64,000 bases of DNA. Source: Zygnema cylindricum. Its lineage: Eukaryota > Streptophyta > Zygnematophyceae > Zygnematales > Zygnemataceae. The DNA lies in contig JBBHKE010000892.1 of the NCBI GenBank assembly GCA_037447655.1, positions 140,774 through 204,773 on the forward strand, given 5' to 3'. Each line of letters begins with the position of its first letter. Within the stretch, counting starts at the first letter, position 1. The notes below the pieces were generated by a model. The model was given only the letters and a program-made list of their open reading frames with translations, ran no database searches and was not told the origin of the DNA. The translations under genes and the position numbers were made by a program. Below, piece after piece: positions 13,501 to 62,921 of this stretch.

Positions 13501-13647
13501 GGTGTCAATTTCGTCGTCGGGAGTCTGAATCCAGAAGCCTGTGGATGACTTTCCGGTAACAATACCTCTTGTTGTGACACGTGTACCAACAATGGGAGAA
13601 GTGTGGGTGCTGCCTTGAATTTGGTTGATTGGAACGAAGGGAAGGAG
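7554..13647 (-). CDS. Nuclease module 2 (C-terminal half) with Pro-rich tail
   Basis: Repeats module 1 exon for exon: six internal exons have identical lengths in both halves (192, 81, 170, 264, 147, 241 bp). The OB-like domain starts right at the acceptor (PINQIQGSTHTSP, GIVTGKSSTGFWIQTPDDEI). The EEP motifs are again intact: FTIATFNMENFGG, AEEIQ, VNHFVSKGG, GDLNDFS and ISDHDPSVARI. Two extra exons add extensin-like SPPP repeats and a final Pro/Arg/Ser-rich stretch (RPPPPRRPPPPRSP style), stop at 7554-7556. No clear signal peptide of its own exists unless an ATG at about 13716 is used, which supports reading it as the second half of one protein. Both modules look catalytically competent. Confidence 0.78.
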
Positions 13648-19600: not shown

Positions 19601-19734
19601 TTTTGGGTATTTAAAGGAGAACTGTGATTGGCTCCCTGGATTTGATTAATAGGCGTTATAACTTGAGAAAAAACGGGCAGAAAAGACGAAAGAGAAAACA
19701 GTACAATTAGCAGTATGGTTCTTGGAGGAGCCAT
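7554..19734 (-). CDS. Bimodular secreted ExeM/NucH-type endonuclease (two EEP nuclease modules), 21 exons
   Basis: Exons in order of transcription: 19734-19187, 17946-17878, 17491-17300, 16909-16791, 16404-16324, 16086-15917, 15699-15436, 15188-15042, 14373-14133, 13973-13822, 13647-13166, 12875-12804, 12293-12102, 11949-11828, 11615-11535, 11238-11069, 10937-10674, 10441-10295, 9727-9487, 9232-8889, 7933-7554. All junctions are GT-AG and phases agree except for one lost base in the penultimate exon. The first ten exons total exactly 661 codons. The protein is a hydrophobic signal peptide (MAPPRTILLIVLFSL...), an OB-like module and EEP nuclease, a Pro-rich linker, a second OB-like module and EEP nuclease, then a long Pro-rich tail. 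Known members of the family are extracellular nucleases acting on DNA. Phosphate scavenging or wall association is inference. Alternative: two tandem genes split at 13.7-13.8 kb. Confidence 0.8.
8955..8970 (-). other. Single-base frameshift in the Pro-rich exon
   Basis: Repeat units in exon 9232-8889 normally contain the plus-strand run GTGGGGGAGG. Here one G is missing (GTGGGGAGG). In the frame entering the exon, translation hits TAG at 8922-8924. In the frame one base over it stays open (PLSPPPSDSLHPPLESF...) to the donor at 8889 and joins the last exon in phase. Either an assembly error in a repeat or a real truncating allele. Confidence 0.7.
13648..13821 (-). other. Hinge intron joining the two nuclease modules
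   Basis: On the minus strand the exon end CCTGCG is followed by GTAAGC. After 174 bp the sequence TTTATTTTGCAG precedes CTCCTTCCC. Both sides are phase 0, so splicing fuses the linker in frame to module 2 (...PPPA-LLPFVPINQ). There is too little room here for a terminator plus a promoter. Confidence 0.7.
13822..19734 (-). CDS. Nuclease module 1 (N-terminal half, with signal peptide)
   Basis: The ATG at 19732-19734 gives about 24 hydrophobic residues ending near VFSQ, a good secretory signal; an upstream in-frame Met is also possible. Residues of roughly 25-200 form the OB-like domain typical of these nucleases (INQIQGANHSSP, GIVTGVSSTGFWVQTPDSEI, TSEGIFVFRSSQ, VNGTVTEYFP). The EEP nuclease follows with its metal and catalytic motifs intact: FTIATFNMENFGG, LCAEEIQ, VNHFASKGG, GDLNDFG and ISDHDPSVARI. 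Exon 13973-13822 encodes the Pro-rich linker (SPPPQNPPPQSPPQQSPPP). If that last donor (GCG|GTAAGC) is not used, translation runs on 14 codons to a TAG at about 13780, which would make this a stand-alone gene. Confidence 0.82.
16935..17165. repeat. Intronic minisatellite of TCACATCACATTATG-like units
   Basis: Degenerate short tandem units built on CACAT/CACGTC with TTATGTCACATCACATTCTG-like repeats, within the intron between nuclease exons 17491-17300 and 16909-16791. Non-coding; the open frames across it are artefacts of periodicity. Confidence 0.75.
18310..19165. repeat. ~850-bp polypyrimidine tract inside nuclease intron 1
   Basis: Nearly pure C/T on the plus strand (purine on the transcribed sense strand), made of irregular CCCTCTTCC-like units. 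It lies in the intron between exons 19734-19187 and 17946-17878. Its long Leu/Pro/Ser open frames on the plus strand are composition artefacts. Confidence 0.85.
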
Positions 19735-19805
19735 TGTGACAAATGTCACAGCTCGGCTAAGTGTGCGAAATCATAAACAGTTGCAATGGCGTTTTTGCTT
19801 GGTAT

Positions 19806-25671: not shown

Positions 25672-28257
25672 CTAAATGTCGATATGTTTAGTCCTGTGAT
25701 GGTGTATTGGATTGCCCATAAGGGCAAGCGAACCTTGGGAGTCGTTGAATATTACTGCCGCGGAGGGTTGTGGAAACTGAAGATTGGAAAGGAGGAAGCG
25801 TAACCAGATCGCTTCCTTGGTGGCATGAGTGGCAGCCATATATTCGGATTCCGTGGATGAAAGAGCTACAGTTGGTTGCTTCCTGGAAGACCAAGAAATG
25901 AGGGCGCCATGAAGGGAAAAACACACACCGGTAGTGGAGCGTCGGGAGTCCAAATCTTCCCCCCAGTCCGAATCACAAAAACCAACCAGCTCAGGCGAAG
26001 AGGAGCCAGTGAAGGTGAGCTTGAGGCTTTTTGTTCCTTGGAGGTAATGAATAACTCTTTTAGCAGCAAGGAGGTGATCTGCTGAAGGGTTGGACACAAA
26101 TTGACTGAGCTGTTCAACTGCTACTGCTATGTCAGGACGCGTCCCTGTCATAGCATACATGAGACTCCCAACAATGGAACGATAAAGTTCATGGGTGGCT
26201 ACACGGACACACCCACCGGAGTTGCGTCCCTGTCATAGCGTACATGAGACTCCCAACAATGGAAAGATAAAGTTAATGGGTGGCTACGGGGACAAGCCCA
26301 CCAAAGTTTTTGATAAGCTTTACATTGGGGTCTAATAAAGTGGAAATTGGGCTACAATCAAACATGGAAAATCTGGTGAGGATTTCATTGATATATTTTT
26401 CTTAGGATAGATATAAGGTTTTAGATGGTCGATTTCGACCGACAAAAATACCAAGACAATATTCTACTTATCCTAAGTCAATCATGGAGAAGTAGAGGTT
26501 GAGCATGGTTTTTACTAGATTGATGAGGGAAAGAAAAGGACATGCAAGGAGGAGATCATGGACATAAATAACTAGGATGACTAAAGACTCGTCATTACCT
26601 CGTATAAAAAGACCAAAATATACATCAAGCTTGTTGAAGCCCTCTTTGAGAAGAACGACCTCCAGGTGTTTATTCCAAACGCGAGGTGCTTGTTTTAGGC
26701 CGTAGAGAGATTTGAGAAGTCTGCAAACGAGGTGCTCGGTGCGAAGCGCGACATATCCTTCCGGTTGACGGATGAAGATTTCCTTGCATATGTGCCGTAG
26801 AGAAAAGCGGTTTGCACATCCATGTGATGGACGTGCCAATCACGGGCAGCAACAAAGGAGAGGAGAATACAAATGGAGGTAAACTTTGCTACCGGAGCCT
26901 AGGTTTCTTTGAAGTCAACTCCCTCCTTTTGGAGAAAACCTTTGGCGACGAAGCAAGCCTTGAAGCGGTCAAGGGATCCATCAGCTTTAGTTTTGATTCA
27001 AAAAACCCACTTCGATCCGATGACCTTTCGATCTTTTGGAAGAGCGGTAAGTTCTTAGGTGCCATTTTTTTTTAAGGATGCAAACTCCGCGTTTGTGGCC
27101 ACTTTCCAGGAGGCAGCATACGGTCCATTCATGGCGGCTGAAAATGATTGAGGAACGTCGAGAGTGGCAATGTTTGTTGTTCCGTTGCCTTAACAAAACT
27201 GCTGGTTGAGAATTCTTTTACTTTTGCAAAGGGGTTGGGATACAGCATTAGGAGTGGGAACAGAATTTTCTTTTTGAATAGCATATGGTGGATCGTTAGG
27301 ATTAACCGGGGAGAGGGAATAAGGATCGGAAACAGCCCGAGAGAGTGGGGAAGGGGAGGATGGTAAAAGGAGTTCTGAGGTGGATCTGATGAGTGTGGAA
27401 GGAGGGAGGGGTAGAGAAGAGTGGGAGAGTGAAGAATTATTGGTTAAATGAGGAGCAATGGCAAGAGATATGATGGAAAGGAGTGATGAAAGAGATTTCA
27501 GCTGGGTAAGGGGACGAGGAGGGGAAGGGGAAAGAGAAGGAGGTGAAGCATGCAAAAGTTTGAGAAAGAGAGGTTCTTCATTAAAACTGACATCACGGTT
27601 GAGGACAACTCGACGTTTGCTAGAGACCCAAATTCGGTATGCCTTGGATTCGGTGGCAAAACCAACTAAGACGCCCAATTTGGCTCGGCTGTCCCATTTG
27701 CCGGTTGGAGTAAGATTCTTGATCCAAGTGGTACAACCGAATATACAAATGTGTGAGACGTCTAGATTTCTTCCTGTCCACGCTTCATGAGGGGTTTTTC
27801 CGAGATAAGCGGAGGTTGGGAAAAGGTTGCGTAAGTAATTTGCAGTGGTTACAGATTCTGCCCAGAAAATTGTTGGCATGGCAGCAAAATGTAACATGGA
27901 CCTACCCATGTTGACCACCGTTCGATGGTATCTTTCGGAAACACCATTTTTTTGTGGTGTATGGGGAACGGTAGATTGGTGAACGATTCCGTGATAACTA
28001 AGGAATCGCGAAAATTCGGTGGAGAAGTTGTCCCCCTTGTTGACTGTTCTTAGAAATTTGATACGACAGTCGAGGGAGTTTTCAACAAGGGTTTTATATT
28101 CGTGTTTTTGTAAACGTGTCAGATTTTCGAAGAAGAAGGAAAAGATGACAAAAGCGTGTGGCGTCATCAATGAAGGTTACAAAATATAGGGCGCCAATGT
28201 GACTTCGTACAAACATGGGACCACAAAGATCAGAGTGGACCAATGTGAGGGGGTCGT
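25672..28257 (-). pseudogene. Ty1/copia pol: integrase, RT, RNase H (5'-truncated)
   Basis: Read from 28257 downwards. The integrase core includes LTLVHSDLCGPMF, the block HQSTVPHTPQKNGVSERYHR, and WAESVTTANYLRN with GKTPHEAW; the longest open piece is 28170-27190. A low-complexity Pro/Ser linker follows, then RT pieces ([23 protein letters not shown]) around 26839-26468, where the catalytic box is altered to IYVHDLL instead of YVDDML. Next comes RNase H at 26160-25672 (GTRPDIAVAVEQLSQF, STTGVCFSLHGALISWSSRK, ALSSTESEYMA). Stops and frame changes interrupt the RT. The sequence stops abruptly at about 28257 against gypsy-derived DNA, so gag and protease are missing. Confidence 0.85.
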
Positions 28258-28415
28258 TGTCAAGCTCGAGTGCTTTTCAGGCACCCTTCTATATTACCGA
28301 GGATTTCCGTACCCTTCCGACCCGTACTATTCTCAGATTTCGGAGAAGCCCGCACAACCTGCCGGAAGGATTGAAGTATTTCCTCTACTGAACAAGACGC
28401 ACTTTGTTTCGTGCC
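28258..28415 (+). repeat. 158-bp direct repeat flanking the gypsy element (left copy)
   Basis: Begins TGTCAAGCTCGAGTGCTTTT and is repeated nearly perfectly at 39819-39976, where it directly follows a 283-bp LTR. It is best read as the first part of the gypsy internal region after the 5' LTR; that LTR has been lost at the junction with copia DNA. Confidence 0.75.
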
Positions 28416-28783
28416 ATAAAGTACACCGGCAGCTGTACTTTTGCGTACGGAACTCAATTCTGATTGGTTCCGTACATCAGTAGATAGAGTCTGTGAGAGA
28501 GATAGGACTTAGAAAAATTAGAAGATAGGACCCCCTCTCCCAAAGAGCTTCTGTACAAAAGGTCAACTTTGACCCTCCATAACTTACTGCTCAGGGGAGC
28601 AAATTCAGAGATTCTTTTTGCTACCGACTCAGGGGAGTCTTGCCTTTACAGAGGTGGAGGTGGTCAGGGTTTTTGTCTGCCATGGTGGCAGTTATTTTTG
28701 CTGGAACACAAAGGGGTCAAGATTATCCTAGAGGCTTCTTCGAAGCTGTCTACTCTGAGGATTATGGAGGTCTCAGAGTTTCA
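28416..28783 (+). mobile_element. 3' fragment of the 34/37-kb LTR family
   Basis: Matches the complement of the LTRs at 34105-35298 and 37280-38473, from the block ATAAAGTACACCGGCA to the terminal CTCAGAGTTTCA. Only about 370 of about 1190 bp remain. It interrupts the gypsy 5' leader. Confidence 0.75.
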
Positions 28784-29077
28784 CGACCCACGTACAATTT
28801 AAATCATTTCGAATATTAATCATCGGATCGCTTCGCGATCCGCCGTCTATTTCTCCAACACATTCCGCACTTTCGTCTATGTTTCTTCGCGTCACTTGAA
28901 GTCCAATTCTGTTTGTTCCAATAAACTTAGTACCAAGTACGCAAGCTGCTATGACTGCGATGTGACTAGCGCAGCATGGCAGCGCAATATCTTTGTCACA
29001 CACGCTGCTATGACAGCGGTGTGACCAGCGCAGCATGGCAGCATAGTAATGTGATATAGAGAGGACTAAAGGTTTCC
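28784..29077. other. Gypsy leader / unassigned DNA with 59-bp-spaced duplication
   Basis: The block GCTGCTATGACTGCGATGTG...GCATGGCAGC (28945-28983) recurs 59 bp later at 29004. The stretch near 28812 (CGGATCGCTTCGCGATCCGCC) resembles 49905-49930, so part is another repeat family. No gene. Confidence 0.45.
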
Positions 29078-29949
29078 AAAATCCAACATGCTCCTCTTAC
29101 GGCAGCGCAACGACTCCAAAGACAGAAGCAAGAGTTACTACATAAGCTAGTGGAGCTTGATCTTCAAAGCACATCGAGTGTTAATGACGATGATTTGATG
29201 GGCTGGGATTTGGAACCCCCAAACGCCCACCATGCAAACAATTTCTTGCACAGAGCATGGAATGTTGGAGTGGGAGATGGTCGTAGACAACTCCGCTCCT
29301 CAACCTCGGATCAAAGGAGAGACAGGCGGAAAATGGGCCAAAAGGACCACAACAGGAAGGCCACCGGGCCTTTGTCTTTCACGCCCAGGGCAGTCATTCT
29401 GAACAATGACATAGGCCTTGGGATAAGTCCACTCAACCCCCTCCTCTTTCTCCTCAACCTAAATTTCCTCCCGGTTTCGAAAATTACAAGAAAGAGAAAC
29501 TGCAGCAGGAGACAAAATCAATGGAAAAGGACAACCAAAGTACATAGGATTGGTTTGAGCGGTGTATGGCCGAACGCGCGGACGAAGATGCACCAAAAAC
29601 TCCACCCGTACCCGATTCCGGTTCTGAAACTGATGGCAACGAACAGATAGAACCGGATCAGGAACAAAATTCGCCGACATCTACCCCAAAAGCTCCGCTC
29701 CATTCCTCCAAGCCTGCTATTATGCTGGTCCGGCATTTGATGCCTTATGCCTTGACCCATGTCAAGACCCTTGCTTCCCCCCATAATTTGCCCGAAAAGA
29801 TCCTCATTCAGGCCCTGGGAGAAGAGATCCATTCTGGAAAAGACAAAGTCGACAGGGTGACACTTCCCACGGCGGTATACTTGTCTTCAGATCCTAAGAC
29901 CCCTATGCGGATAGGGACTACAAAACTTTGTCCATGGCACTCATTCTAA
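29078..29949 (+). pseudogene. Gypsy gag-position region, degenerate and unusually short
   Basis: Two overlapping frames (29078-29650 and 29566-29949) lie where gag belongs. The first encodes HAPLTAAQRLQRQKQELLHK, a helical Gln/Leu-rich start, then a basic region. The second is acidic (APKTPPVPDSGSETDGNEQI) and runs toward the protease through KVDRVTLPTAVYLSSDPKTP. At least one frameshift joins them. No retrotransposon gag capsid motif and no CCHC zinc knuckle are visible, and the total (under 300 codons) is short for a gypsy gag. Either the capsid was deleted or the family's gag has diverged beyond recognition. Confidence 0.55.
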
Positions 29950-30465
29950 ACCGGACTGGGAATTTCAAACTGAACGGGTACGGCGGGTATCAGGACGATG
30001 TGGTTGATACGGGAGCACTTCCCAACCTCATCACTACTTCTGCATTGCAGAAAAATGCCGGAAGAACTCAGACCCCAGATATGCCCGAGTAACATCTGCT
30101 TAAGCACATACAACACCAGCAATCAGCCAGTCCATGGGATCATCAAAGCCATGGACATTGAATTCTTATATGATGCGGGACAGAAGGTGAAAATTGGACT
30201 TCCTTTCTTAGTGATAGAAGGGAATCAGTTTGAAATTCTGTTGGGAATGGCAACTTGGACCTGCATAAATATGAGGTTGAGTGTTTGGAAGGAGCAATGT
30301 ATAGTTCGGGACCCAGGAAATCCCGAAGGAACCAAGGTTGTGGTTCCTTTGGATTAATGGAACCGGGGAAAGACAAATGTTCCGGTGTCTGGCTGTTACC
30401 CCGTGTATTCTACCACCTCTCCGGCGGAGCTGTTTGACAGTTCCACAGATATTGCCGAAGACATC
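29950..30465 (+). pseudogene. Gypsy retropepsin-like aspartic protease
   Basis: A frame reading SMALILNRTGNFKLNGYGGY is followed by DDVVDTGALPNLITTSALQK, where D-T-G-A is the retropepsin active site. It ends at a stop near 30090; the protein continues one frame over with KVKIGLPFLVIEGNQFEILLG, whose ILLG is the second conserved protease motif. After the TAA at 30355-30357 the same frame stays open to a TAG at 30466-30468. That frame is also the frame of the methyltransferase, showing that protease and methyltransferase were parts of one polyprotein. Confidence 0.75.
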
Positions 30466-30468
30466 TAG

Positions 30469-31983
30469 CAATTCCCAATTTCCAAGCGGTGGGAAAAAGA
30501 ATACACAGACAGATTATTGCAGGTGGCGAAACTCCGGCGGGGAGTGGATCAAACATTCTCGGCCTTACTATTACCGAAAACAGATTCGACGATCCAGTCA
30601 GATGTTTTCAAAACCAAGACTGGGAGCGAGGACTTCAATCGACAAGTGGTGTCATTGACAGTCCCAGACTCCGGACTTCGGATTTTATCTTTATTTTCAG
30701 GAATCAGTTCTGATTTGGAGGCAGTTTTAAAGGCAGGGTATCGAGTGGAGTCATACACAGCAGTGGAAATTTCACCGGAAGCGCGAGCTGTCAGCGAACA
30801 CCGCCTACATCAACTGCACCGCTTATATCCTCAACAGCTTCCAGTGTCTTCCATTTCCAAAGCTCACCGGAGTCTTCCCCAGAATGTGGATAATATAATG
30901 GCACCTCATTTAGCTAGTCTGGGAAGAGTAGATCTGGTTGTGGCGGGATGGCCTTGTCAGGGATACTCCCTAGCAGGACAAGGAAGAGGGCATCAGGACC
31001 ACCGAAGTGGAACCTTCTATCAGATGATTACATTGATATCGTGGATTCAGCAGCTCCAAGACACACCAGTGGGGTACATTCTGGAGAATGTCCACCCGGG
31101 GGATGATAAACGAAAGCAGGTTGCAGAAAGTTGGAATCAGGTAACCCGTATCCTGGGAGCTCCCTTGGTTTTTGACGCTGCTCAAATGGGATCTCGAGCG
31201 CACAGACTCCGGGCATATTGGACCAATATGATCCCTCTTCCAGTCCTCCGACAACTGTTGGAGACACAAACCCCCGACCCCCAGATTTCAGTGCAGCAGA
31301 TACTTGGAAAAGGGAGAATGGCGACACCTGTAACAAAACCGGATCGTACACCTTTCTTCCAATGCAATATCCCCAGATTCCCACGTCGAGCACTCCCCAC
31401 GTTGGTATCTTTTCCTCACAGTCACGCCTACCGAAAAGGAGCAGCTGGAATGATTTTTGACAGCAAGGAAAGACTTTGGACAGCACCAACAATATCGGAA
31501 CGAGAACAGGCAATGGGATTTCATCTGGAAACCACGGCAGCACGAGGTATTTCAGACCTACAGCGGTGCAGCCTCATAGGGCAAAGCATGGATTTAAATG
31601 CCATTACATGGGTTGTAAAGCATGCTCTTGCCTATTCCAGTCTCCACGCTCCAGATTCACGTAGAAATTACCTTCAAGCTCCACAGTTACTGTCCATACA
31701 AGCAACTTTGCAGCTTGAGGGGGGGAGAGAAAAGAGAAGAATTCTACACCCGAGAGTTCTTTCAGCGGGGGGGAACATGAGCTCAGAAGGAGACAGCTTA
31801 GCGGAAGTTGTCAGCAGTAAGGTATTATTCGGAGGAATAGAGGCAGATCCACAGGTTGGGCTAGAATTCGACATCAACCTCTGGGGAAGACCACCGGAAG
31901 CTTGGGCTGCGTTTGAGCTTGGAAAAATGGACTTGACTCTGGGGGAGCAGTTGGACCCTCAGCAGAAAGAACAGCTAACATAA
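30469..31983 (+). CDS. Retrotransposon-encoded C5-cytosine DNA methyltransferase
   Basis: Open stretch of about 500 codons between protease and RT; the first good ATG is at 30517 (488 codons). Counting from it, the conserved C5-methyltransferase motifs are in order: I (SAM binding) LSLFSGISSDLEAVLKAGY at 57-75; II AVEIS at 82-86; IV with catalytic Cys VVAGWPCQGYS at 141-151 (Cys147); VI ILENV at 188-192; VIII-like SRAHRLRAYWTN at 226-237; IX-like APTISEREQAMGF at 323-335; X LIGQSMDLNAITWV at 353-366. The AHRLRAYW form resembles Dnmt3/DRM (AHRARYFW) more than DNMT1. The enzyme would transfer methyl from SAM to cytosine in DNA. The C-terminal 100 residues lead into the RT N-terminus across a TAA at 31981-31983. 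All key residues are intact, unlike the rest of the element. Confidence 0.92.
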   Translation, partial: QFPISKRWEKEYTDRLLQVAKLRRGVDQTFSALLLPKTDSTIQSDVFKTKTGSEDFNRQVVSLTVPDSGLRILSLFSGISSDLEAVLKAGYRVESYTAVEISPEARAVSEHRLHQLHRLYPQQLPVSSISKAHRSLPQNVDNIMAPHLASLGRVDLVVAGWPCQGYSLAGQGRGHQDHRSGTFYQMITLISWIQQLQDTPVGYILENVHPGDDKRKQVAESWNQVTRILGAPLVFDAAQMGSRAHRLRAYWTNMIPLPVLRQLLETQTPDPQISVQQILGKGRMATPVTKPDRTPFFQCNIPRFPRRALPTLVSFPHSHAYRKGAAGMIFDSKERLWTAPTISEREQAMGFHLETTAARGISDLQRCSLIGQSMDLNAITWVVKHALAYSSLHAPDSRRNYLQAPQLLSIQATLQLEGGREKRRILHPRVLSAGGNMSSEGDSLAEVVSSKVLFGGIEADPQVGLEFDINLWGRPPEAWAAFELGKMDLTLGEQLDPQQKEQLT

Positions 31984-32818
31984 CTCTTGGCTAGAAACAC
32001 TCAGTTTTTCTCATGGTCCGAAACAGGTGTTGGAATCTACAAAACAACCCCCTTTCAGATAGATTTGATCGACGAAACCGCAACGGTTTGGCAGAAACAA
32101 TATCCTCTCAGCTTCAAAGAGAAAGAGTTTATTACTGCAAAGGTTCAAACTTTTTTTTGGACGCAGGGTTGGTTCAGGAAAGTAGCGGACTCAATGGGTT
32201 TGCTTCCCCCACAGTTCTCCTTCCTAAGAAGGATTCATCCGGGAAAACTGTGGACTTCCGAATTTGTGGGGACTACCGCATGTTGAACACGGCCACCATT
32301 CCTAACCGGTACCCAATGCCAACTCCGGAAGAGATATTCGACTCTCTTGCTGGGGCCACCATTTTCTCCACACTGGACATGAAGAATGGTTTCCACCAGA
32401 TTGCCATGGAACCAAAACACCGAGAGAGAACGGCATTCTGGGCCGGATCCAGACTTTATGAGTGGATTTACATGCCTTTCGGACTGAAGAATGCACCAGC
32501 AAAGTTCCAACGGGCCATGGACGAAGCGCTCCGAGGAATCGATTGTGCCAGGTGCTACATCGACGATGTGATAATATTTTCCAAGACCTTTGAAGATTAC
32601 CTGGAGCATATCCAGATCGTTCTCCGGGCTCTTCAAGCAGCAGGCTTGAAATGTCACCCGGGCAAGGGTATTTTTGGGGTGCAGAAAATCATTTACCTCA
32701 GACATGAGGTAACTCCTGGGACATTGGGTCCCCATATGGTGAAGGTTGCAGCCCTCGACCCTCTTCCTCCCCCGCAGGACATTTCTGCCTTGCGCACCTT
32801 TCTTGGCCTGGCTAACTA
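31984..32818 (+). pseudogene. Gypsy reverse transcriptase
   Basis: Continues the methyltransferase frame past the TAA (LLARNTQFFSWSETGVGIYK). It shifts frame at a run of eight T (about 32150-32157) and then reads SPTVLLPKKDSSGK, FRICGDYRMLN, IFSTLDMKNGFHQIAM, MPFGLKNAPAKFQRAM and CYIDDVIIFSKTFEDYLEHI. YIDD is the polymerase active site and is intact. A TAG at 32817-32819 and a second frame change follow. Polymerase and thumb regions are otherwise complete. The homopolymer shift could be a sequencing error; the other breaks are harder to dismiss. Confidence 0.88.
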
Positions 32819-32819
32819 G

Positions 32820-34104
32820 TATCGCAGGTTTATTTCCCGAGTTCAGTAGTCACGCCCAGCCCCTCAATAAACTATTACGGAAAGATCAAGAATGGCAGTG
32901 GGCCGAGGAACAGCAGATCGCTTTCCAGTTCTTGAAGGATGCCCTGAAGCAGCACCCAGTGCTCCGGATGCGTGATCACAAGAGGCCTTTCCTCCTTTAC
33001 ACTGATTGGAGCAGGTTTGGATTGGGAGCTGTTTTCGCTCAAGTTGACGACGCACGTGCCGAGTATGTGGTGGCTTACGCTAGCTGGAGCAATAACCGAG
33101 CTGAGGGAAATTATAGCAGTTATCATGGGGAGCTTCTTGCCACGGTTTGGGCCATCCAGCATTTCATACCTTATTTGTACGGGGTCCATTTCACACTAAT
33201 CACCGATCACCAACCCTTGAAGTGGATCATGGAAAATAGTAAGTTGACCGGCAAACTCGCCAGATGGGTTCTTATCCTGCGGGAATATGATTTCAGCATT
33301 GTCCATCGGGCAAGGGAAATTCATGGGAATGCCGAGAGACTGAGCCGAAACCCCGATCCTTCTACCCTGGATTCCACCGGGGCTCGGCACGACGAGGATC
33401 CGAAAATCAGTTTGGGACTCATTCGAGCATCCTCCGCCTTCATTTGGCTTCTTCCATCTGGGGGGGAATTGTCAACTTTTGCAGCAGATGTTGAGGGGGA
33501 GGCACCCATGGGAGCCGGACGGAAAGACATTTGGAATGACTCCGAAGCTCTCCAATCTATTCAGCAGGGATCCCCTCTTCCCCACTTGGCTGGAATTCAA
33601 TTATCTCGAGTTCAGACCCGGATGGCGGCGTATGAGTGGGACCGAGGAGTGCTCCTCCGAAAATCGACAGACGGTATTAGGAGAGTGGTTCCTCCTTCCT
33701 CAGATCGAGAAACTCTGATTACCAATCTCCATAAACAATGTGGACACTTCGGACAGAAGCGAACCACTTCCTTGGTTACAGGCTCTTACTGGTGGCACGG
33801 GTTGCGGGCCCAAGTCAACGGAATTGTACAAACTTGCACTTATTGCGATCGAGTTAAGGCAGCTTTTGACAAAAAGGGCGGGACTGAGCTCCATTCTCTT
33901 CCCATCAGGGGAATGTTTTATCGGTGTTCTTTCGATCTTTTGGGACCTCTTCCGACCAGTAGACGTGGGAATCGTTTCGTTCTGGTCATGATTGAACATT
34001 TCTCAAAATGGATAGAGCTTGTGGTCCTGCCCCGAAAGGAGTCCAAGTCCATTTCTGACACCTTTCTGCAGAGAGTCTTGTCACGGTTTGGGGCGCCAGC
34101 AGAG
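32820..34104 (+). pseudogene. Gypsy RNase H and integrase N-terminal half (interrupted)
   Basis: The frame 32746-34107 carries the RT connection and RNase H (FLLYTDWSRFGLGAVFAQ, YHGELLATVWAIQHF, LITDHQPLKWIM, RAREIHGNAERLSRNP). A linker follows, then the integrase HHCC zinc domain (HKQCGHFGQKRT...CTYCDRVKA) and the first part of the DDE core (CSFDLLGPLPTSRRGN, LVMIEHFSKWIELVVLP). It breaks off after RFGAPAE at 34104, where the composite insertion begins, and resumes at 38604 with VLTDQGSEFAGEF. Confidence 0.9.
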
Positions 34105-35298
34105 TGAAACTCTGAGACCTCCATTGGCCCTCAGAGTATGCAGATCCAAAAGAAGCTAATCTAGATAGTGCCGACTCCAAGTTAATATAAACCCAAGTGA
34201 CTGACCCCTTGACAGTCAGAACCCCAATATAGATTCACCCCTGTGAAATAACACTTTCTGTGTGCTCAATTCCACCACAGAATGCAAAGTTAGAATATGA
34301 GATTTGGACACATTCACCCACTTTGACTTTCCCTTAGAAATACAGCCACCCTGGCAGACAAAAACTCTGACCGACTACACCCCTGTGTAGCCTAGACTCC
34401 CCTGAGTCCGCAGCAAAAAGAATCACTGAAAATGGTCAAGTAAATTAATAGTTATGGCTGGCCAAAGTTTGCCATTTATACAGGGTGCTCTCTGGGAGAG
34501 GCAGCTGCCTACCCAAAATTTATCTAAGTCCTATTCCCTCTCTAAAACTCTATCTACTGAAGTACGGCACCAATCAAATTACTGTATCGTACATAAAAGT
34601 ACAGGTGCCGGTGTACTTTATGTACGGCCATTGTCCGACATGGCAAAAATGTCGACACGTGTCATATCCGGATTTGTTCCCGTAATCTCCGGAGTTGCCG
34701 CAATCCAATGTAGTGTTACCACGTGTCACTTAATGTGGCGGTGATCGCAAACCGCCAAAATCGTACGCCGCGATCTCAGCATCCTTCGCCGCCGTCCGAT
34801 CAAATTTGGATTTCAATCGTGGCCGTCATAAATACCTGCGCGGTATTCTTTCCGGCGTCAAACAAACCGCGCGGTATTTATTTCGTAATCGTACCGTACG
34901 TCGTACTTTCCACAACTGTTTCTATGCAGTATCCATATAGTTCTAGTTAAATGAATTATTCTTATAGTAACTATTTAAATAAATATCATACCTCTTAATA
35001 TCTAATACAATTAAGACTATTTGGATAAGACTACCGGCTATTGTCGGTTTGACAAGTGGCAGGTACCAGGATCAAATCCTGGACCTGGCAAAACTATCTT
35101 TTACAGAAAACCCCCTATAAAACAACTGTCTGTCTCCCTCTAGACAGCACAGGCAGCCATGGCTAACTCCTCCTTCAGTCTTCAGTGACTGCGACAAGTG
35201 TGGGGACTTGAGGAGGAGTTAGAGGCAGGCTGTCAATATCTACTATTTTGCTTTTTATTTTGCAATCTCTAGACCTAGAAAATACTTGAATTCCAACA
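34105..35298 (-). mobile_element. 3' LTR of the gag-only copia element
   Basis: On the minus strand it runs TGTTGGAATTC...CTCAGAGTTTCA, a canonical TG...CA LTR, preceded by the polypurine segment AAAATAAGGGGAG (complement of 35299-35311). It contains at 35066-35082 a perfect T-arm-like stem-loop (CCAGG ATCAAAT CCTGG). Confidence 0.88.
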
Positions 35299-35949
35299 CT
35301 CCCCTTATTTTCTAGTCTATTTTTCTTTCAACTCCCACAAACAAGTAAACAAACATCCCCTCCCCTTTTTCCTTTTCTTTTTCCTTTTTCCTTTTCCTTT
35401 CATAAAACTTAAGTATTTAACACAGTGCATTAAATGAACTGAAATGATAATTATATCACACATTTTATTTAACATCCCATTTTTCTTAAATTCAAGCAAA
35501 GATTTTATCCACTTCATCACTCTTTCATCCACACACAAACCGATTTCCCTCTTGCGATCCAAATAGCCAGCCCCATTTCCAATCTGCAACATACACCTAG
35601 ATGCTAACCCTTTTACAAGCACATCTTCGTCACACCAAGTAGTGATGTCAAATCCATCCACCCCCAAATATTCTCAAAAACCACTAGTCCCCACTAAGTT
35701 CCTCATAAGATCTATATCTTTCGTACTCATATTTTTATCCATGATAATTACCCCATTTTCTGAACTTCCCTCACTCTCTCCCATGGAATTCTTTCCACTA
35801 TTACTTTCTAATTTAGTTCCCAATAAATATTTCTTCTCCCCTAAACCTTTAATCAAATATTTCTCTTCTCCCCTATCCTTTAAAACCTCTTCGAGTTTCA
35901 CTTCTCCCCTTTCCTCGGAATCCGTTGAAGTCTCCCTTTCCGACCAGTT
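35299..35949 (-). pseudogene. Remnants of copia pol in the gag-only element
   Basis: A stop-ridden stretch between gag and the 3' LTR. The frame 35667-35317 (ITTWCDEDVLVKGLASRCML..GNGAGYLDRK...MKWIKSLL) aligns by eye with RNase H of the copia at 51.2-54.7 kb (ITTWSDASYGDAPMRRCTSGYV...VGDGACCWSSK...MWVKSLL). RT and most of integrase are gone. This identifies the element as an internally deleted derivative of that family. Confidence 0.65.
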
Positions 35950-37275
35950 TTATGTTTCCCTATTGTGTATAAAATTATCCTCATTAATTTTATCTTTCCC
36001 GTTTTCACTTATGGATCCTAGATCTGACTTTCTCATTTCTAAATCATATACTCTACACTCCTTGACATCCTCAAGTACCTCTTCTCTCTTTACTTCCCTT
36101 ATACCTCCAAAAGCACACTGTTGCCTTCGAGCAATTTCTGTGTACTTTTCTCCCTTCCCCATTCTACCGATGTGAAGAAGCTCCAATTTTTCTTCATCCT
36201 CTTTCTCCTCTTCATCTTCGTCCTCCTCATCCACATTCCAACTTCTAAGTTTTTCCAAACAAGGGCATTCCTCCATATTATGACCCGGTTCCCTACAAAA
36301 GAAGCAAACCCCTTTTTTCAAAGCTCCCGTGCCTTTTCCTCTCCCTCTCTTTCCACCAAAGTTCCGATAAGGTTTACCTTTGTCTTTCTTTCTCTCATCA
36401 CGCTTCCGCTCGTCACCACCGTTCTTCTCATCACGCTTCCGCTCGTCACCGCCGTTCCTCTCATCACGATTCCGCCAATCACCACCAGCTGAAAATGCAT
36501 TGACCCTGTCCTTTCCCCTACGAAGCTCCAAAGTGCTTTCCCTCACAAGAATTATCCCCATGGAAAAGCTCCAAGTCCATGAGGAGCCATCCATTGCCTG
36601 CATACGACAAATGATGTTTTCGTTCTCATCTGGGAGTTTCATAAGTAGTGTATTAATCTTACTCTCCTGAGATTCTACATATCCCGCACTAGTAAGCTCA
36701 ACGTATAACGCAGCAATATCATTGCAAAACTCTATCATGCTATCGCCTTTATAAACGTAGGCATCTATTTCCTGTTTTACTAATTGCTCCCTCTGAATAG
36801 TCTCACTCTTATAAATCTGAATTAGTGCTTCCCATATATTTGAAGCTTTGGTTAGACTTAAAAGAGTGATAGCTATCGACTTAGACACATATCTAAGTAT
36901 GAGATGTTTTGCTATAGTGTTTTTGTATTCCCATATTTTTGTGTCATTTTCTTCAGTTTTAATCCCTACATGTGGTACCATAGCTGAGAGCCTAGCTCCC
37001 CTCACCATAGGTGTCCCTTTTTCCTTCTCCCCTATTTCCCCATCCACGGAAAGGTTTTTCCCTTCACCTTCCGTTGCATCTGAACTCTGGGTGATATTCT
37101 GGACAGTCTCAGATGATTCTCCGTAGTAAGCTCCTCCAAAGCTAGGTGGCGGACATCTCACTTGTCCCGCAACAATTCCCCATAAGTGCTTCTCGAAAAG
37201 CAATCCCTCCATTGTAAATGCCCAATACGTGAAGCCTGTTCCATCAAACATAGGCACCCTAGATGGTGGGCCCAT
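35950..37275 (-). CDS. Intact copia-type gag (441 aa) of a non-autonomous LTR element
   Basis: A single uninterrupted ORF. The N-terminal gag core has the copia pattern (MFDGTGFTYWAFTMEGLLFE, later IWEALIQIYKSETIQREQLV and MIEFCNDIAALYVELTSAGY, LLMKLPDENENIICRMQAM). A charged spacer contains four repeated RDE(R/K)NGGDER-like units, then a basic patch (NFGGKRGRGKGTG), a CCHC knuckle CFFCREPGHNMEEC, and an acidic run EDEDEEEKEDEE. The C-terminus fuses to short pol relics: QCAFGGI matches the pre-integrase start and VKECRVYDLEMRK the integrase tail of the 51-54.7 kb family. The start codon lies inside the primer-binding site. It would form particles that rely on RT and integrase supplied in trans. 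Confidence 0.85.
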   Translation of the reverse strand: MGPPSRVPMFDGTGFTYWAFTMEGLLFEKHLWGIVAGQVRCPPPSFGGAYYGESSETVQNITQSSDATEGEGKNLSVDGEIGEKEKGTPMVRGARLSAMVPHVGIKTEENDTKIWEYKNTIAKHLILRYVSKSIAITLLSLTKASNIWEALIQIYKSETIQREQLVKQEIDAYVYKGDSMIEFCNDIAALYVELTSAGYVESQESKINTLLMKLPDENENIICRMQAMDGSSWTWSFSMGIILVRESTLELRRGKDRVNAFSAGGDWRNRDERNGGDERKRDEKNGGDERKRDERKKDKGKPYRNFGGKRGRGKGTGALKKGVCFFCREPGHNMEECPCLEKLRSWNVDEEDEDEEEKEDEEKLELLHIGRMGKGEKYTEIARRQQCAFGGIREVKREEVLEDVKECRVYDLEMRKSDLGSISENGKDKINEDNFIHNRET

Positions 37276-37279
37276 AACC
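37266..37279 (-). other. Primer-binding site matching the tRNA-iMet anticodon arm
   Basis: On the minus strand GGTTATGGGCCCAC directly follows the 5' LTR. It is the exact complement of GTGGGCCCATAACC, the anticodon arm of plant initiator tRNA-Met as I know it. Drosophila copia and yeast Ty5 are known to prime from this internal part of the tRNA. The gag ATG (37273-37275) lies within the site. Confidence 0.75.
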
Positions 37280-38473
37280 TAAAACTCTGAGACCTCCATT
37301 GGCCCTCAGAGTATGCAGATCCAAAAGAAGCTAATCTAGATAGTGCCGACTCCAAGTTAATATAAACCCAAGTGACTGACCCCTTGACAGTCAGAACCCC
37401 AATATAGATTCACCCCTGTGAAATAACACTTTCTGTGTGCTCAATTCCACCACAGAATGCAAAGTTAGAATATGAGATTTGGACACATTCACCCACTTTG
37501 ACTTTCCCTTAGAAATACAGCCACCCTGGCAGACAAAAACTCTGACCGACTACACCCCTGTGTAGCCTAGACTCCCCTGAGTCCGCAGCAAAAAGAATCA
37601 CTGAAAATGGTCAAGTAAATTAATAGTTATGGCTGGCCAAAGTTTGCCATTTATACAGGGTGCTCTCTGGGAGAGGCAGCTGCCTACCCAAAATTTATCT
37701 AAGTCCTATTCCCTCTCTAAAACTCTATCTACTGAAGTACGGCACCAATCAAATTACTGTATCGTACATAAAAGTACAGGTGCCGGTGTACTTTATGTAC
37801 GGCCATTGTACGACATGGCAAAAATGTCGACACGTGTCATATCCGGATTTGTTCCCGTAATCTCCGGAGTTGCCGCAATCCAATGTAGTGTTACCACGTG
37901 TCACTTAATGTGGCGGTGATCGCAAACCGCCAAAATCGTACGCCGCGATCTCGGCATCCTTCGCGGCCGTCCGATCAAATTTGGATTTCAATCGTGGCCG
38001 TCATAAATACCTGCGCGGTATTCTTTCCGGCGTCAAACAAACCGCGCGGTATTTATTTCGTAATCGTACCGTACGGCGTACTTTCCACAACTGTTTCTAT
38101 GCATTATCCATATAGTTCTAGTTAAATGAATTATTCTTATAGTAACTATTTAAATAAATATCATACCTCTTAATATCTAATACAATTAAGACTATCTGGA
38201 TAAGACTACCGGCTATTGTCGGTTTGACAAGTGGCAGGTACCAGGATCAAATCCTGGACCTGGCAAAACTATCTTTTACAGAAAAACCCCTATAAAACAA
38301 CTGTCTGTCTCCCTCTAGACAGCACAGGCAGCCATGGCTAACTCCTCCTTCAGTCTTCAGTGACTGCGACAAGTGTGGGGACTTGAGGAGGAGTTAGAGG
38401 CAGGCTGTCAATATCTACTATTTTGCTTTTTATTTTGCAATCTCTAGACCTAGAAAATACTTGAATTCCAACA
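37280..38473 (-). mobile_element. 5' LTR of the gag-only copia element
   Basis: Nearly identical to 34105-35298. Unlike a normal 5' LTR it is preceded (minus strand) by the same 22-bp PPT segment that precedes the 3' LTR, then by a heterologous LTR piece. Its inner end reads TA instead of TG on the plus strand. Confidence 0.85.
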
Positions 38474-38494
38474 CTCCCCTTATTTTCTAGTCTA

Positions 38495-38603
38495 TGGTAG
38501 TGCGTTCGCAGCTAAAGTGAAAGGTCCCAGGTTCGAACCCTGGCCGGCTCAACTTTCCCAAGTGTGGGACATGCCGAATCCCGGATTTCTAGGAAATCTA
38601 ACA
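38495..38603 (+). mobile_element. 109-bp tRNA-like 3' piece of a TRIM LTR
   Basis: Matches the 3' parts of the LTRs at 61162-62622 and 62681-62916. It starts inside the D-loop (GGTAGTGCG), keeps a perfect T arm (CCAGG TTCGAAC CCTGG) and a B box GGTTCGAACCC at 38530-38540, then CCGGCTCA and the LTR end ...ATCTAACA. Confidence 0.8.
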
Positions 38604-39489
38604 CAGAGGTTCTGACCGACCAGGGATCGGAATTCGCCGGAGAATTTACCAATCTTTTGGAGAAATGCCTCATCGACCATCGACTTACCAGCCGCGACCA
38701 CCCCCAAGCCGACGGTTTGGCCGAAAGGTGCGTACAGACAGTGAAGTGGTCACTACAGAAATATGCAGTTGAAGAGGACTTGGGAGAGTGGGACAGAAGG
38801 GTGCCTTGGATTGCCATGGGATACCGATTCAGCAGACAGGCTTCTCTTCACTCCTACAGCCCTTACTTCATTTTATTCAGACGGCATCCCATTCTGCCCA
38901 AGGCTTCCTTTGCCCAAGCGGTGGTCCTTCGGCAATGGATGACAAGGGAACTGTCGAAAAACTGATCGCCGACCGTGCCAAAATTTTCCCCTGGGAGATG
39001 CCTCTCGCCATGCGGAATTTACAGGCGGCACAACACTGGGATCAATAGTGGTATTCCCAGCGCCGGAGCGGAGATTATGTGCCCCGACAGCGACGATTTA
39101 TGCTGGGAGACTTTGTTTATCGCATGCAACAGAAAAAGGACACGCTTGACATTTCTGCCGGGCAGGGGATCTTGAAAGTGGTGGAAGTTGTAAATAAGGG
39201 AGTTCTGACTGAAGAAGGGAAAGATGGGCGAAGAATTAAAGAGAATCAAATCAATGTGGCCCCTTGTCACCTCCGAGGATTAGAAGACGACCCCACTTTC
39301 CATTTGACTTACTTTGCCGATCCTCCTTCCTGTTCATCATCCTGCAACTTGTCCTCCCAGCAGCAAGACATCTTGGTCTGCCATCAGTGCTGGCAGTGCT
39401 GGCATCCAGCTTGTCTCCCCTCCTCATGGGAACCACGCCCTCCATCCCCTAGTCCATGGTTATGCGGGAACTGTGAATTGGGCCGGTAA
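38604..39489 (+). pseudogene. Gypsy integrase C-terminal half with terminal PHD finger
   Basis: Resumes the integrase DDE core with VLTDQGSEFAGEF and HPQADGLAERCVQTVKWSLQ, in which the second Asp and the Glu neighbourhood are conserved. Next come PWIAMGYRFSRQASLHSYSP and RRHPILP. A frameshift near 38940 and a TAG at 39046-39048 intervene. The last part (MLGDFVYRMQQKKDTLDISA...GILKVVEVVNKGVL) is the integrase C-terminal domain, followed without interruption by a PHD finger and the stop at 39487-39489. The element would insert cDNA into chromatin, with the PHD as a candidate targeting module. Confidence 0.85.
39331..39480 (+). other. PHD zinc finger at the integrase C-terminus
   Basis: The pattern is C-x3-C-x11-C-x2-C-x4-H-x2-C-x16-C-x2-C (CSSSC..., CHQC, then WH and PAC, then CGNC). 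A Trp two residues before the seventh Cys is the diagnostic PHD position. Only the first spacing (x3 for x2) departs from the C4HC3 consensus. PHD fingers commonly read the H3 tail; the ligand here is not predictable. Confidence 0.8.
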
Positions 39490-39517
39490 CTATTTCTTTT
39501 TTTTAGTCACGGTTGAC

Positions 39518-39533
39518 TAAGAGGGGGGGAAAT
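39518..39533 (+). other. Polypurine tract of the gypsy element
   Basis: AAGAGGGGGGGAAA lies 30 bp after the pol stop and directly before a TG...CA LTR, as expected for plus-strand priming. Confidence 0.75.
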
Positions 39534-39816
39534 TGGGGCACCAACCCGATTACCGAGAACCCAACCCCTTTTCGCGGCTTAATGGGGAAAGTAAGGGGGA
39601 GGGGAGATCTTTTCGCCTTCCCATACACTCATCCCTATTCCCTATCCTTGTGCCTCTCCTATCTGTGCATGCATTCCTATTGGGAGGGATGGGGTCAGCA
39701 GTGGGCATTATCATTATTATGGGAAGCATTCGCATTGGTGGGTTCTTTGCAGGATGCCGAGACCGGCCATTCCGGGCATAGGGCCCTTCCTTTGTGTTTC
39801 TCTGGCACGCTCGACA
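39534..39816 (+). mobile_element. Gypsy 3' LTR (283 bp)
   Basis: Begins TGGGGCACCAACCCG and ends CACGCTCGACA, TG...CA. Nearly identical in sequence and equal in length to 40999-41281. Confidence 0.75.
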
Positions 39817-40998
39817 GCTGTCAAGCTCGAGTGCTTTTCAGGCACACTTCTATATTACCGAGGATTTCGGTACCCTTCCGACCTGTACTATTCTTAGATT
39901 TCGGAAAAGCCCGCACAACTTGGCGGAAGGATTGAAGTATTTCCTCTACTGAACAAGACGCACTTTTTTTCGTGCCTAACAGAGGCTAGACAACAAAGTT
40001 CTACCGTCTGAAAGATCGCAGTTCCGTCACATAGTACTAGCTTCCACCAGCCCTAGTGGAGGGTACATTGTGGATTGCCACGTAGACTTCCAGAATGTAA
40101 TCTAGATTTTGTTGTTAGCTGTCTGTAGCAATTCAATTCAGATTCAGCTGACCAGTGGTTAATTAATTACATTAAGTCAAAGCTTGGCACTTCCGTGTCT
40201 TTTTAGTACTTTGTCTTAAAAACTGTGGAAGAAAAAATAACTTCCGGCCGTAGATCTAGCCATGGTCAGATGTCCAACTTTTTGCCCCAAGAGTAGTACA
40301 CATTATTTTGTCTTATGTCAGTTTGATTGCCGTTGCTGGTCGCTCATTGGCTAATAGCGTAGGTTTGACTTTTGGACCTGATTTTGGACAAACTTTGATG
40401 TATAAGGCGCTTGGGGCCGAAGGAGACAGGTTGCTTTTCAGTACTGTCTCCTGTGAAAACCCTCAGAAATTCCAACAAACCTTCTTTTGGAGAAGCTTTG
40501 TATTGTTTGACTCTATTGCCATCTCTGTTTTGGATTTGTCCATTTTGGGAATCATAGTTCGGGCTGGTGGTTGGCACTACCGTCCCTTTGGGTGATTTTT
40601 GGATTTTTCGCTGCTTGAAACTGAGAAGAGTCTAGTCGGTTCTGAGCTGCGGACACCGAGGGTTGAACGAGTACCATACCTATTTACACGGCCATCCGGA
40701 GAGATTTCGCCTTTCTCCCATTGTCATCGTAAATTGCCGGGGTAGGTTAAGCTTGCTTCGCCATCTTATATATCTTCCATCTTATATTTTATTTCTGTGG
40801 TCAAGGTGATATTGTTAAATCTGAAACAGCCATTCCTATTTATTTTTATATGTCCACGTGGTAGTGCATTTGTGTCTTCACTTTTAGTCTCTTTTGCTTT
40901 GGCGGGGACTTCCCGGGGTAAAACTGCAATTTCCTGGCATCGAAACAGTGGGTTTTGAGGGAACGAATGCTATAGACTTCCTGTGGAATAAGCAAAAT
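39817..40998 (+). mobile_element. Deleted second gypsy internal region between two LTRs
   Basis: Starts with the same 158 bp as 28258-28415 (here 39819-39976), as an internal region should after a shared LTR, and ends at a third LTR. About 1.18 kb, with no gag or pol. A 95-codon frame at 40308-40595 resembles nothing known. The arrangement LTR-pol-LTR-remnant-LTR suggests recombination between tandem copies. Confidence 0.6.
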
Positions 40999-41281
40999 TG
41001 GGGCACCGACCCGATTACCGAGAACCCAACCCCTTTCCTCGGCTTAATGGGGAAAGTAAGGGGGAGGGGAGATCTTTTCGCCTTCCCATGCACTCATCCC
41101 TATTCCCTATCCTTGTGCCTCTCCTATCTGTGCATGCATTCCTGTTGGGAGGGATGGGGTCAGCAGTGGGCATTATCATTATTATGGGAAGCATTCGCAT
41201 TGGTGGGTTCTTTGCAGGAAGCCGAGACCGACTTTTTCGGGCATAGGGCCCTTCCCTTGTGTTTCTCTGGCACGCTCGACA
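40999..41281 (+). mobile_element. Second gypsy LTR copy (283 bp)
   Basis: TGGGGCACCGACCCG...CACGCTCGACA, differing from 39534-39816 at only a few positions. Not preceded by a good polypurine tract. Confidence 0.75.
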
Positions 41282-41706
41282 TTGTATTATATTTTGCACA
41301 TTGTGTAGAATGACATGCCACGTTATGATGTCCATAAAAAACGGTACAATTGTACGGTCTGAACCGTACAATTATAGCCAATAATTATCGGTCCCGATTT
41401 CTATCGGTAATCCATCATGAGAATTCCATTGCCGATATGTCGAACCATATCGGTAGGTCTCAAATATGGTATATATCGCTTCTCAACATATGACTACCGA
41501 TACTCAACGTGGAAATTGTACCTAATGTACCAGTTATGCGTACTATTTCATCGTACCGCTAGAGCCCCATTTTCTGGGCAAACACCGTCGTTTTTAACTG
41601 TTGATTTTTGAACCTTGTCTTTTGAAAACAAAAACTTTGAAGCGTGGGTACCCACAAAGTTGAACGGTACACCTTGAATCGCTATTAGTGTTAATGTTTA
41701 TATCGC

Positions 41707-44519: not shown

Positions 44520-45331
44520 CAGAGGTCGCAAAAGTAAAAAAAAATCATACCCGAAACCGACCGTTTTTTTTTTTTCAAAATCTGAGTAACCGACGCCCGA
44601 CCGAGTTTTGTCACGCTCCAAAATTGTTAACCGTTAACCGACCGTCGTTTACGAAAAAAAAAATTAACCGAATTTTGATTTTTCGTGACTAACCGTGCCC
44701 GCCCCTAACCCAAAAAGTACAAAATTAATCAATGTACGACGGAATAAGCCAATAATTACGATTTGTCGCGTTCCTTAAGATTTGCGAAATGAATAGTGTT
44801 ACTACTGTGTCAGGTTTGCGACGCTTTGTCGCGTTCACTAAGATTTGCGAAATGAATAGTGTACTACTGTGTCAAGTTTGCGACGCTTTGTCGCGTTGCC
44901 TAAGATTTGCGAAATGAATATTGTACTACCGTCTCAGATTTGAGACGCTTTGTCGCGTTCCCAAAGATTTTCGAAATGAATAGTGTACTACCGTGTCAGA
45001 TTAGCGACGCTTTGTCGCGTTCCCTTTGATTTGCGAAATAAATAGCTTACTACAGTACCGTGTCAGATTTGCGACGCTAATCATGATGCCACGTACTTCC
45101 ACGATACCAAAAGTACAAAGAACAATAATGTTGGAAAAAAAAAGTACAAAATTTTCATTTTTTTTGGTTTTTTGTTTGACCGACCGTAACTAACCGTTTT
45201 TTTTTTCCTGGTGAGTCAACCGACCGTAACCGCCCGACCCCCAAAATTTGGCAACCGAATCCGTTCCGGATCCGGCGCGGGCGGTCGGTTAACGGTCGGT
45301 CACGGTTTCGGTTGACCGTTTGCGACCTCTG
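44520..45331. mobile_element. hAT-like non-autonomous element, 8-bp TSD ACTACAGT
   Basis: TIRs CAGAGGTCGCAAA and TTTGCGACCTCTG are exact inverses. The flanks 44512-44519 and 45332-45339 are identical 8-mers ACTACAGT. An 8-bp duplication with CAGAGGTCG-type ends is characteristic of hAT elements. Subterminal blocks rich in CCGACCG/CGGTCGG are also inverted. No transposase; the middle holds a 62-bp satellite. Confidence 0.9.
44762..45077. repeat. 62-bp tandem satellite, five copies, inside the hAT element
   Basis: Units start TTTGTCGCGTT at 44762, 44825, 44887, 44949 and 45011 (spacing 63, 62, 62, 62) and end with TTGCGACGC-like sequence. Confidence 0.9.
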
Positions 45332-62916: not shown

Positions 62917-62921
62917 CATTT

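Follow-up and report, generated by a model that had tools for sequence, protein, structure and literature searches.

A Ty3-type retrotransposon family of Zygnema cylindricum with a DNMT3-type cytosine methyltransferase at the head of Pol

Does a retrotransposon of Zygnema cylindricum encode its own C5-cytosine DNA methyltransferase (DNMT), and if so, is the enzyme an old part of the element or a host gene that landed in it? The question was raised by 64,000 nucleotides of contig JBBHKE010000892.1 (assembly GCA_037447655.1, positions 140,774 to 204,773), referred to here as the window, in which an earlier note had read a Ty3/gypsy element with a methyltransferase between protease and reverse transcriptase (RT). 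We confirmed that window positions 28258-41281 hold a decayed copy of a Ty3-type retrotransposon whose Pol is headed by a DNMT3-type C5-cytosine methyltransferase. The protease is followed by Pol, with DNMT, RT, RNase H, integrase and PHD finger in that order, and Pol was a single open frame including both DNMT and RT in two other copies of the same genome, C544 (1525 codons) and C1374 (1520 codons). The element ends lay where the note had put them, with the A1 repeat starting at 28258, the B2 repeat finishing at 41281, and TCGT and TTGT as flanks. Features new to our analysis were the nested element, an insert near 28416, the partial loss of gag, the PHD finger and the A-X-B-A-B arrangement of the repeats.

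The DNMT lies in an open reading frame (ORF) of 504 codons from stop to stop (30469-31983), which matched PF00145 (DNA_methylase) with E 2.5e-10. Motifs I (ILSLFSGI), IV (AGWPCQG), VI (LENV), VIII (RAHRLR) and IX/X, in the usual I-X numbering, were all present in unrearranged order, and the catalytic PC, ENV and RxR motifs were retained. In a phmmer search against the PDB, DNMT3A came first (1.5e-10), with HhaI and 4onj, presumably a plant DRM methyltransferase, far weaker (~0.009). An AlphaFold model of the domain (pLDDT 79, pTM 0.84) gave 195 PDB matches at E <=0.001, the best 50 of which were all DNMT3 structures. The domain thus has the fold and motif order of DNMT3A and DNMT3B, at 18-23% identity among the listed fold matches; the N-terminal domains of the vertebrate DNMT3A and DNMT3B are no part of the element's Pol. 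DRM (domains rearranged methyltransferase) is a plant enzyme with a related catalytic domain, but the motif order of the element is unrearranged, unlike that of DRM. Two DRM-like exons with rearranged motif order (by eye) were seen elsewhere in the genome, 14 kb apart on C2414 (L127, L128); their best PDB matches were 4onj (E 5.6e-48) and the DRM2 structure 7l4h (7.7e-47). Such exons, like the named relatives of the element, point to a green host.

The copy in the window is dead, with RT and protease both frameshifted and carrying stops. RT matched PF00078 (E 9.4e-26), and RNase H, the integrase zinc finger and a truncated integrase core followed in order by Pfam. The claim that protease end, DNMT and RT start share one reading frame held as far as the frame itself goes, but the frame is interrupted by TAA at 30355-30357, UAG at 30466-30468 and TAA at 31981-31983, and the part with VVDTGA lies in another frame. 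Judged by eye against other copies, a large part of gag is missing. A nested element splits the integrase and is bordered by a 5-bp target duplication, CAGAG, at 34100-34104 and 38604-38608. The features of the element are as follows.

28254-28257 (no strand): 5' flank TCGT, which may form a 4-bp target duplication together with TTGT at 41282-41285 (one mismatch).
28258-28415 (+): A1, start of the left repeat (TGTCAAGC...), 94.9% identical to 39819-39976 and broken off by the insert at about 28416.
28415-28697 (-): insert of another element, resembling a long terminal repeat (LTR), which disrupts A1; the LTRs of the nested element match it with 77% identity in the opposite orientation.
29060-29650 (+): gag remnant, C-terminal part; its translation resembles, by eye, ORFs upstream of the protease in copies C161 and C928.
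29974-30465 (+): aspartic protease, frameshifted, with VVDTGA at 30000 and TAA at 30355-30357; Asp_protease_2 matches at the same place in C544 and C1374, below the cut-off.
30466-30468 (+): conserved in-frame UAG, then CAATTC, between protease and Pol.
30469-31983 (+): DNMT3-type open frame, first domain of Pol, with the DNMT domain at about 30667-31680 (ORF, Pfam, PDB search, model and motifs).
31984-32819 (+): RT (YIDD), with a frameshift near 32160 (ORFs, Pfam).
32743-34104 (+): RNase H, integrase zinc finger and start of the integrase core (ORFs, Pfam).
34105-38603 (-): nested LTR-type element with a copia-type gag, foreign to the DNMT element (LTRs 99.4% identical; PF14223; copy C161 is uninterrupted here).
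38604-39048 (+): remaining integrase core; the translation continues as in other copies (by eye), with no Pfam match of its own.
39049-39489 (+): integrase C-terminal SH3/Tudor-like part and PHD finger (PF00628 E 4.5e-4, below the cut-off; fold and profile matches).
39519-39529 (+): polypurine tract AAGAGGGGGGG immediately before B1, likewise before B1 in C161, C2216 and C544.
39530-39816 (+): B1 repeat, ending ...GCTCGACA (self-comparison of the window).
39817-39818 (+): 2-nt spacer GC between B1 and A2, in the palindrome GACAGCTGTC; B-NN-A junctions recur genome-wide.
39819-40994 (+): A2-Y2, complete left repeat; it aligns with the 5' end of copy C161 at 91% identity across 1180 columns.
40995-41281 (+): B2 repeat, 3' end of the element, 96.2% identical to B1.

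The UAG before Pol was a constant feature of the family. Fourteen copies were searched for it and 12 of them yielded the site; in every one of the 12 the protease frame closes with UAG while Pol runs on in the same frame, for which reason Pol is likely made by read-through. The context was UAG CAATTC in 11 copies and UAG TAATTC in one. Upstream, gag contained two CCHC knuckles in some copies. The Pol of C544 consists of DNMT, RT, RNase H, integrase zinc finger, integrase core (rve) and PHD, the last with a match below the cut-off (E 2.4e-4). Eight Cys/His zinc ligands in the C-terminal part of the integrase were invariant in 17 of 17 sequences. A model of this part (pLDDT 73, pTM 0.45) had the Tudor-PHD proteins PHF1 and MTF2 as its top matches with a TM of only ~0.3, and therefore at most small domains match. 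A Pol profile built from 16 relatives and the 146-residue tail of the window copy matched the PHD fingers of CHD4 at profile positions 976-1026 (E 6e-19), and PF00628 was listed for many Pol relatives. Chromoviruses carry a chromodomain at the integrase C-terminus, whereas Pfam gave no chromodomain match there in the window family and a PHD match in its place. Among the PHD and integrase literature listed, no paper dealt with a PHD finger in a Ty3 integrase by its title or the start of its abstract.

Next we asked how widely the DNMT is carried. The genome searched comprised 352.8 Mb in 2689 contigs and contained at least 96 DNMT copies (of 2049 candidates 96 were scored, which gave 101 match rows). 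Identity to the window DNMT was 66-95% in the main rows, many of which had stops, and two copies (C895, C1515) were more diverged at 55-58%. Copies lacking the DNMT, which the earlier note had named as the sign of a host gene inserted into a dead element, were sought at 20 loci. At eight RT matches without a listed DNMT the upstream sequence held one in every case, in C626 as a remnant only. Twelve further loci were chosen by their repeat junction; six had DNMT and RT, and six were not judgeable, as RT lay at the edge of the piece or was truncated, weak or missing (in one of these, C187, the truncated RT has no DNMT upstream of it). All 14 judgeable loci thus had a DNMT or its remnant upstream of RT. 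A search with human DNMT3A, in which 150 of 549 candidates were scored, brought up a second set of matches beyond the window family, mainly over residues 52-170. The one member checked, L124 (C10:131929), is another DNMT-RT element with a DNMT 37% identical to that of the window, and it grouped with protein P0022 in the DNMT tree (support 0.98). Many more matches of this set share its match pattern.

Selection was estimated pairwise (NG86) on 14 copies; the borders of the domains were drawn by eye, and codons with stops, gaps or N were dropped. Of the 48 between-subfamily pairs, 20 were left for the integrase and 25 for its C-terminus after this filter. The median omega between subfamilies was 0.068 for the DNMT (0.055-0.078), 0.029 for RT, 0.032 for RNase H, 0.060 for the integrase, 0.227 for the linker and 0.321 for the N-terminus; dS exceeded 2 for DNMT, RT and RNase H, so that dS is saturated and these omega values are rough. 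Within two subfamilies the DNMT gave 0.26 and 0.25, and RT 0.30 and 0.22. The DNMT is retained by selection, less strictly than RT. The earlier note had seen a hint of special selection in the open DNMT frame beside broken RT, integrase and gag. This was not borne out: stronger constraint on DNMT than on RT was rejected by the between-subfamily rates, the two were about equal within subfamilies, and many DNMT copies have stops.

The terminal repeats of the window copy are arranged as A-X-B-A-B, with the right end running polypurine tract-B1-GC-A2-Y2-B2. In C161 the left repeat is longer and consists of A plus Y (~1180 bp) at the 5' end, just before gag. The element begins with TGTC and finishes with GACA, and the B1-GC-A2 junction makes the palindrome. 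By exact pattern with any 2-nt spacer, 186 B-NN-A junctions were found genome-wide, and the reversed control gave 0. We compared the junction with a terminal B in 31 copies (the window, 10 long loci and 20 short loci), on which the shares given here rest. B1 was followed by GC or AC and A2 in 14 copies, that of the window included (in C886 the A is degenerate); 10 had other DNA there and lack A2-B2, and 7 were not judgeable. One of those 10, C1374, is ambiguous, since a second B with a junction lies 3.7 kb downstream. The C1374 copy at 27014 has the B repeat three times, with 3.7 kb of other DNA between two near-identical 3' stretches of 325-331 bp. Perfect 4-bp target duplications flanked C161 (CAGG) and C2494 (ACAT), both of the A-Y-X-B form. 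Two identical terminal LTRs, as in Ty3/Gypsy elements, were not found, and A-X-B-A-B or A-X-B stands in their place.

RT, RNase H and a DDE integrase in that order, together with a polypurine tract before the 3' repeat, are traits of Ty3/Gypsy (Metaviridae), and the best PDB matches of the Pol profile were Ty3 Gag-Pol structures, 7q5b and 4ol8 first. The order protease, RT, RNase H, integrase is shared with Ty3 of yeast; the DNMT, the PHD finger and the permuted terminal repeats of the window family set it apart from Ty3. Membership in DIRS was rejected, as the Pol of C544 has rve and the scan, which covered Pol, gave no tyrosine recombinase (PF00589). Retrotransposons bearing a methyltransferase were first reported in 2018, from dinoflagellates and a charophyte, which were described as having acquired the enzyme independently (de Mendoza et al., PMC5890265), and the statement in the earlier note that such elements are rare but known from Klebsormidium and Symbiodinium was correct. 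KnitGypsy-Dnmt3 of Klebsormidium nitens has in common with the window family its Gypsy domain content, a DNMT3-type domain in Pol, DIRS-like A-coding-B-A-B repeats and purifying selection on the DNMT (PMC5890265). The level given for the latter is a Ka/Ks below 0.2, against 0.068 between (with saturated dS) and 0.26 and 0.25 within the subfamilies here. K. nitens Pol P0051 also has the DNMT before RT. KnitGypsy-Dnmt3 differs in that it belongs to another genome, its DNMT falls in another clade and its Pol is 43% identical over 60%; the window family has at least 96 copies. A UAG before Pol, a PHD finger, the 2-nt junction and the A-Y-X-B form were not met in the text consulted, and "PHD" and "protease" have 0 occurrences in the main text; K. 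nitens elements may nevertheless share the PHD finger, since Pol P0097 lists a PHD domain. SymbioDIRS-Dnmt3 of Symbiodinium shares the DNMT3-type domain in Pol and the A-coding-B-A-B repeats, but has a tyrosine recombinase where the window family has a DDE integrase (PMC5890265). REM1 of Chlamydomonas was rejected as an element of the same kind, its integrase being described, in the text available, as truncated and in reverse frame. No other primary description of a DNMT in Gypsy elements was found in the open-licence literature among the papers listed.

The explanation that we slightly favour as a whole is that of a multi-copy Ty3 family that has long carried a DNMT3 at the head of Pol, makes Pol by read-through, integrates from circular complementary DNA (cDNA) and directs methylation to itself. 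Pol including the methyltransferase would be made by read-through of the UAG and carried with RT and integrase in the particle. The plus strand would start at the polypurine tract before B1, so that the reverse-transcribed repeat would be B-A-Y. Because the polypurine tract lies directly before B1 and gag after Y1, a linear cDNA with B-A-Y at both ends is suggested, unlike the integrated ends, which are A and B. The cDNA would then be circularised and cut by the integrase at the palindromic B-GC-A junction, a one-repeat circle yielding A-Y-X-B and a two-repeat circle A-Y-X-B-GC-A-Y-B, and both forms were observed. The A-Y-X-B copies with perfect duplications fit such a cut. The DNMT would most likely methylate the element's own cDNA or the insertion site; its targets would be cytosines (CG in related enzymes), and a new copy would thereby resemble methylated host chromatin. 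The PHD finger of the integrase probably reads histone tails and chooses sites. CpG observed/expected was 0.59-0.70 in the element pieces of the window copy, and four further copies gave 0.61-0.65, compared with 0.81-0.83 in the outer window and 0.73 in the nested element, and C/T differences between copies were more frequent at CG (4.6%) than at CHH (2.8%) and CHG (2.2%). These values fit CG methylation of the copies and do not name its author.

Several results weigh against this explanation or leave room for others. The saturated dS makes the between-subfamily constraint an approximate one, and the CpG loss may come from host methylation. Among the six copies with both ends, two had a perfect 4-bp duplication, one (the window) had one mismatch and three (C544, C1920 and C1374, with ends located) had none. 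By eye, no primer site of the tRNA type could be made out downstream of Y1; C161 and C544 have a conserved ACAGTACTGAAAA there, in which no TGG start was seen. The A-Y-X-B copies might instead be A-X-B-A-B insertions that lost A2-Y2-B by recombination of B1 with B2, to which we give nearly even chances: direct repeats of ~290 bp favour such an event and target duplications would survive it, and nothing decisive speaks against it, though the proportion of such copies, 10 of 24 judgeable ones, is high. It is rather unlikely, in our estimate, that the enzyme serves repression, with the element methylating and quieting its own copies, or the host tolerating it for that, at less damage to itself. 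The low CpG and the extra C/T differences at CG agree with repression, and slower transposition has been suggested as a host benefit for the 2018 elements (PMC5890265), but host methylation predicts the same signature and DRM-type exons are present in the genome. Less probable again is a DNMT that acts on RNA, or one without catalysis whose role in Pol is to bind nucleic acid. In yeast no methylation was obtained with the Klebsormidium relative, a result called inconclusive by its authors, whereas two SymbioDIRS Dnmt3 enzymes methylated CG there (PMC5890265), and the catalytic Cys, the ENV Glu and the RxR motif are all retained here. That a host gene or other DNA simply landed in a dead element has next to no probability left: the window copy is indeed dead, but this origin is refuted by the other copies, including the intact frames and the 14 judgeable loci, and by relatives with a DNMT at the same place.

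To follow the DNMT beyond Zygnema, we searched for related proteins and built trees, all with FastTree and local support values. The DNMT search gave 20 proteins, including DNMT-RT and protease-DNMT fusions, and the Pol search gave 171 relatives, the best 120 of which were analysed. A DNMT was found by profile in 61 of these 120 (7 of the 61 under 100 bits); many of the other 59 begin shortly before RT, so that the upstream part lies outside the sequence. The DNMT precedes RT in the window family, Klebsormidium P0051, Closterium and Marchantia (P0095, P0102), and lies between RNase H and integrase in P0082 (labelled Chrzof1, read as Chromochloris), Haematococcus P0092 and Chlamydomonas P0078 (62 bits). 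In each of the Marchantia polymorpha proteins P0095 and P0102 a DNMT domain is listed along with RT and RNase H, and therefore a land plant carries a relative. Viral contigs held 32 loci encoding distant relatives, ten of which were used as outgroup.

Whether these elements captured a DNMT once or several times was judged from RT and DNMT together. In the RT tree the 22 members with the DNMT after RNase H fell within one 28-tip clade (support 0.918), while the ancestor of all 39 DNMT carriers had a support of 0.479 and takes in 35 tips without a seen DNMT. The DNMT tree, from which matches under 100 bits or 250 residues were excluded, supported the post-RNase-H group weakly (0.308; 0.775 for the clade with P0121 in another tree). 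The RT and DNMT distances agreed in Mantel tests overall (r 0.79, 35 proteins), in the pre-RT group (0.92, 13) and in the post-RNase-H group (0.58, 22), each with 0/9999 permutations, which favours long shared descent. The retroelement DNMTs stayed in one group (support 0.875) when set against a thin outgroup of ten phage enzymes and a single human DNMT3A. A single capture is likely on this evidence, drawn from a tree without cellular green DNMT3. Several independent captures by green Ty3 elements are possible but less well favoured; the two positions in Pol, the low RT node with its 35 tips and the missing cellular green DNMT3 speak for them, and the agreement of distances and the cohesion of the retroelement DNMTs against. 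The widest form of our reading is more doubtful still. It would have one deep-green DNMT3 capture found a Ty3 clade that pairs a writer (the DNMT, shifted between two positions within Pol) with a histone reader (the PHD finger on the integrase), and that integrates from circular cDNA cut by the DDE integrase at the palindromic junction, leaving either no terminal direct repeats or the permuted A-X-B-A-B.

Some neighbouring sequences were also observed. The copia-type gag (PF14223) was the sole match among the scanned ORFs of the nested element, which is perhaps of a non-autonomous, gag-only kind. Its second LTR is followed by ~108 bp that include a stretch resembling a tRNA B box (GGTTCGAACCC) and are repeated near 62531-62918. 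Remnants of copia-type Pol flank the region at 27193-28176 and 53868-54608 (minus strand; PF25597; PF22936 and PF13976). Window positions 9275-9790, 13162-13743 and 18952-19770 (minus strand) hold recurring related exons of one gene, without a Pfam match at 0.01, which may resemble extracellular nucleases. Parts of 9454-11247 recur at 14100-16095 with 76-85% identity, likely a tandem duplication. A tandem repeat with a unit of ~62 bp occupies 44758-45109.

Retrotransposons bearing a DNMT have been a known kind since 2018, and what is added here is their breadth, the expression of Pol and the structure of the ends. That the strategy is old and has succeeded is suggested by the size of the family, with its 96 or more copies, by the diverged second DNMT-RT lineage in the genome and by relatives in Marchantia, Closterium and several chlorophytes. 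From the two end structures comes a concrete model of how DIRS-like repeats can occur in an element whose integrase is of the DDE type. Since some relatives live in tractable hosts (Marchantia, and Chlamydomonas with its weak DNMT match), what a retrotransposon gains from its own DNMT becomes testable.

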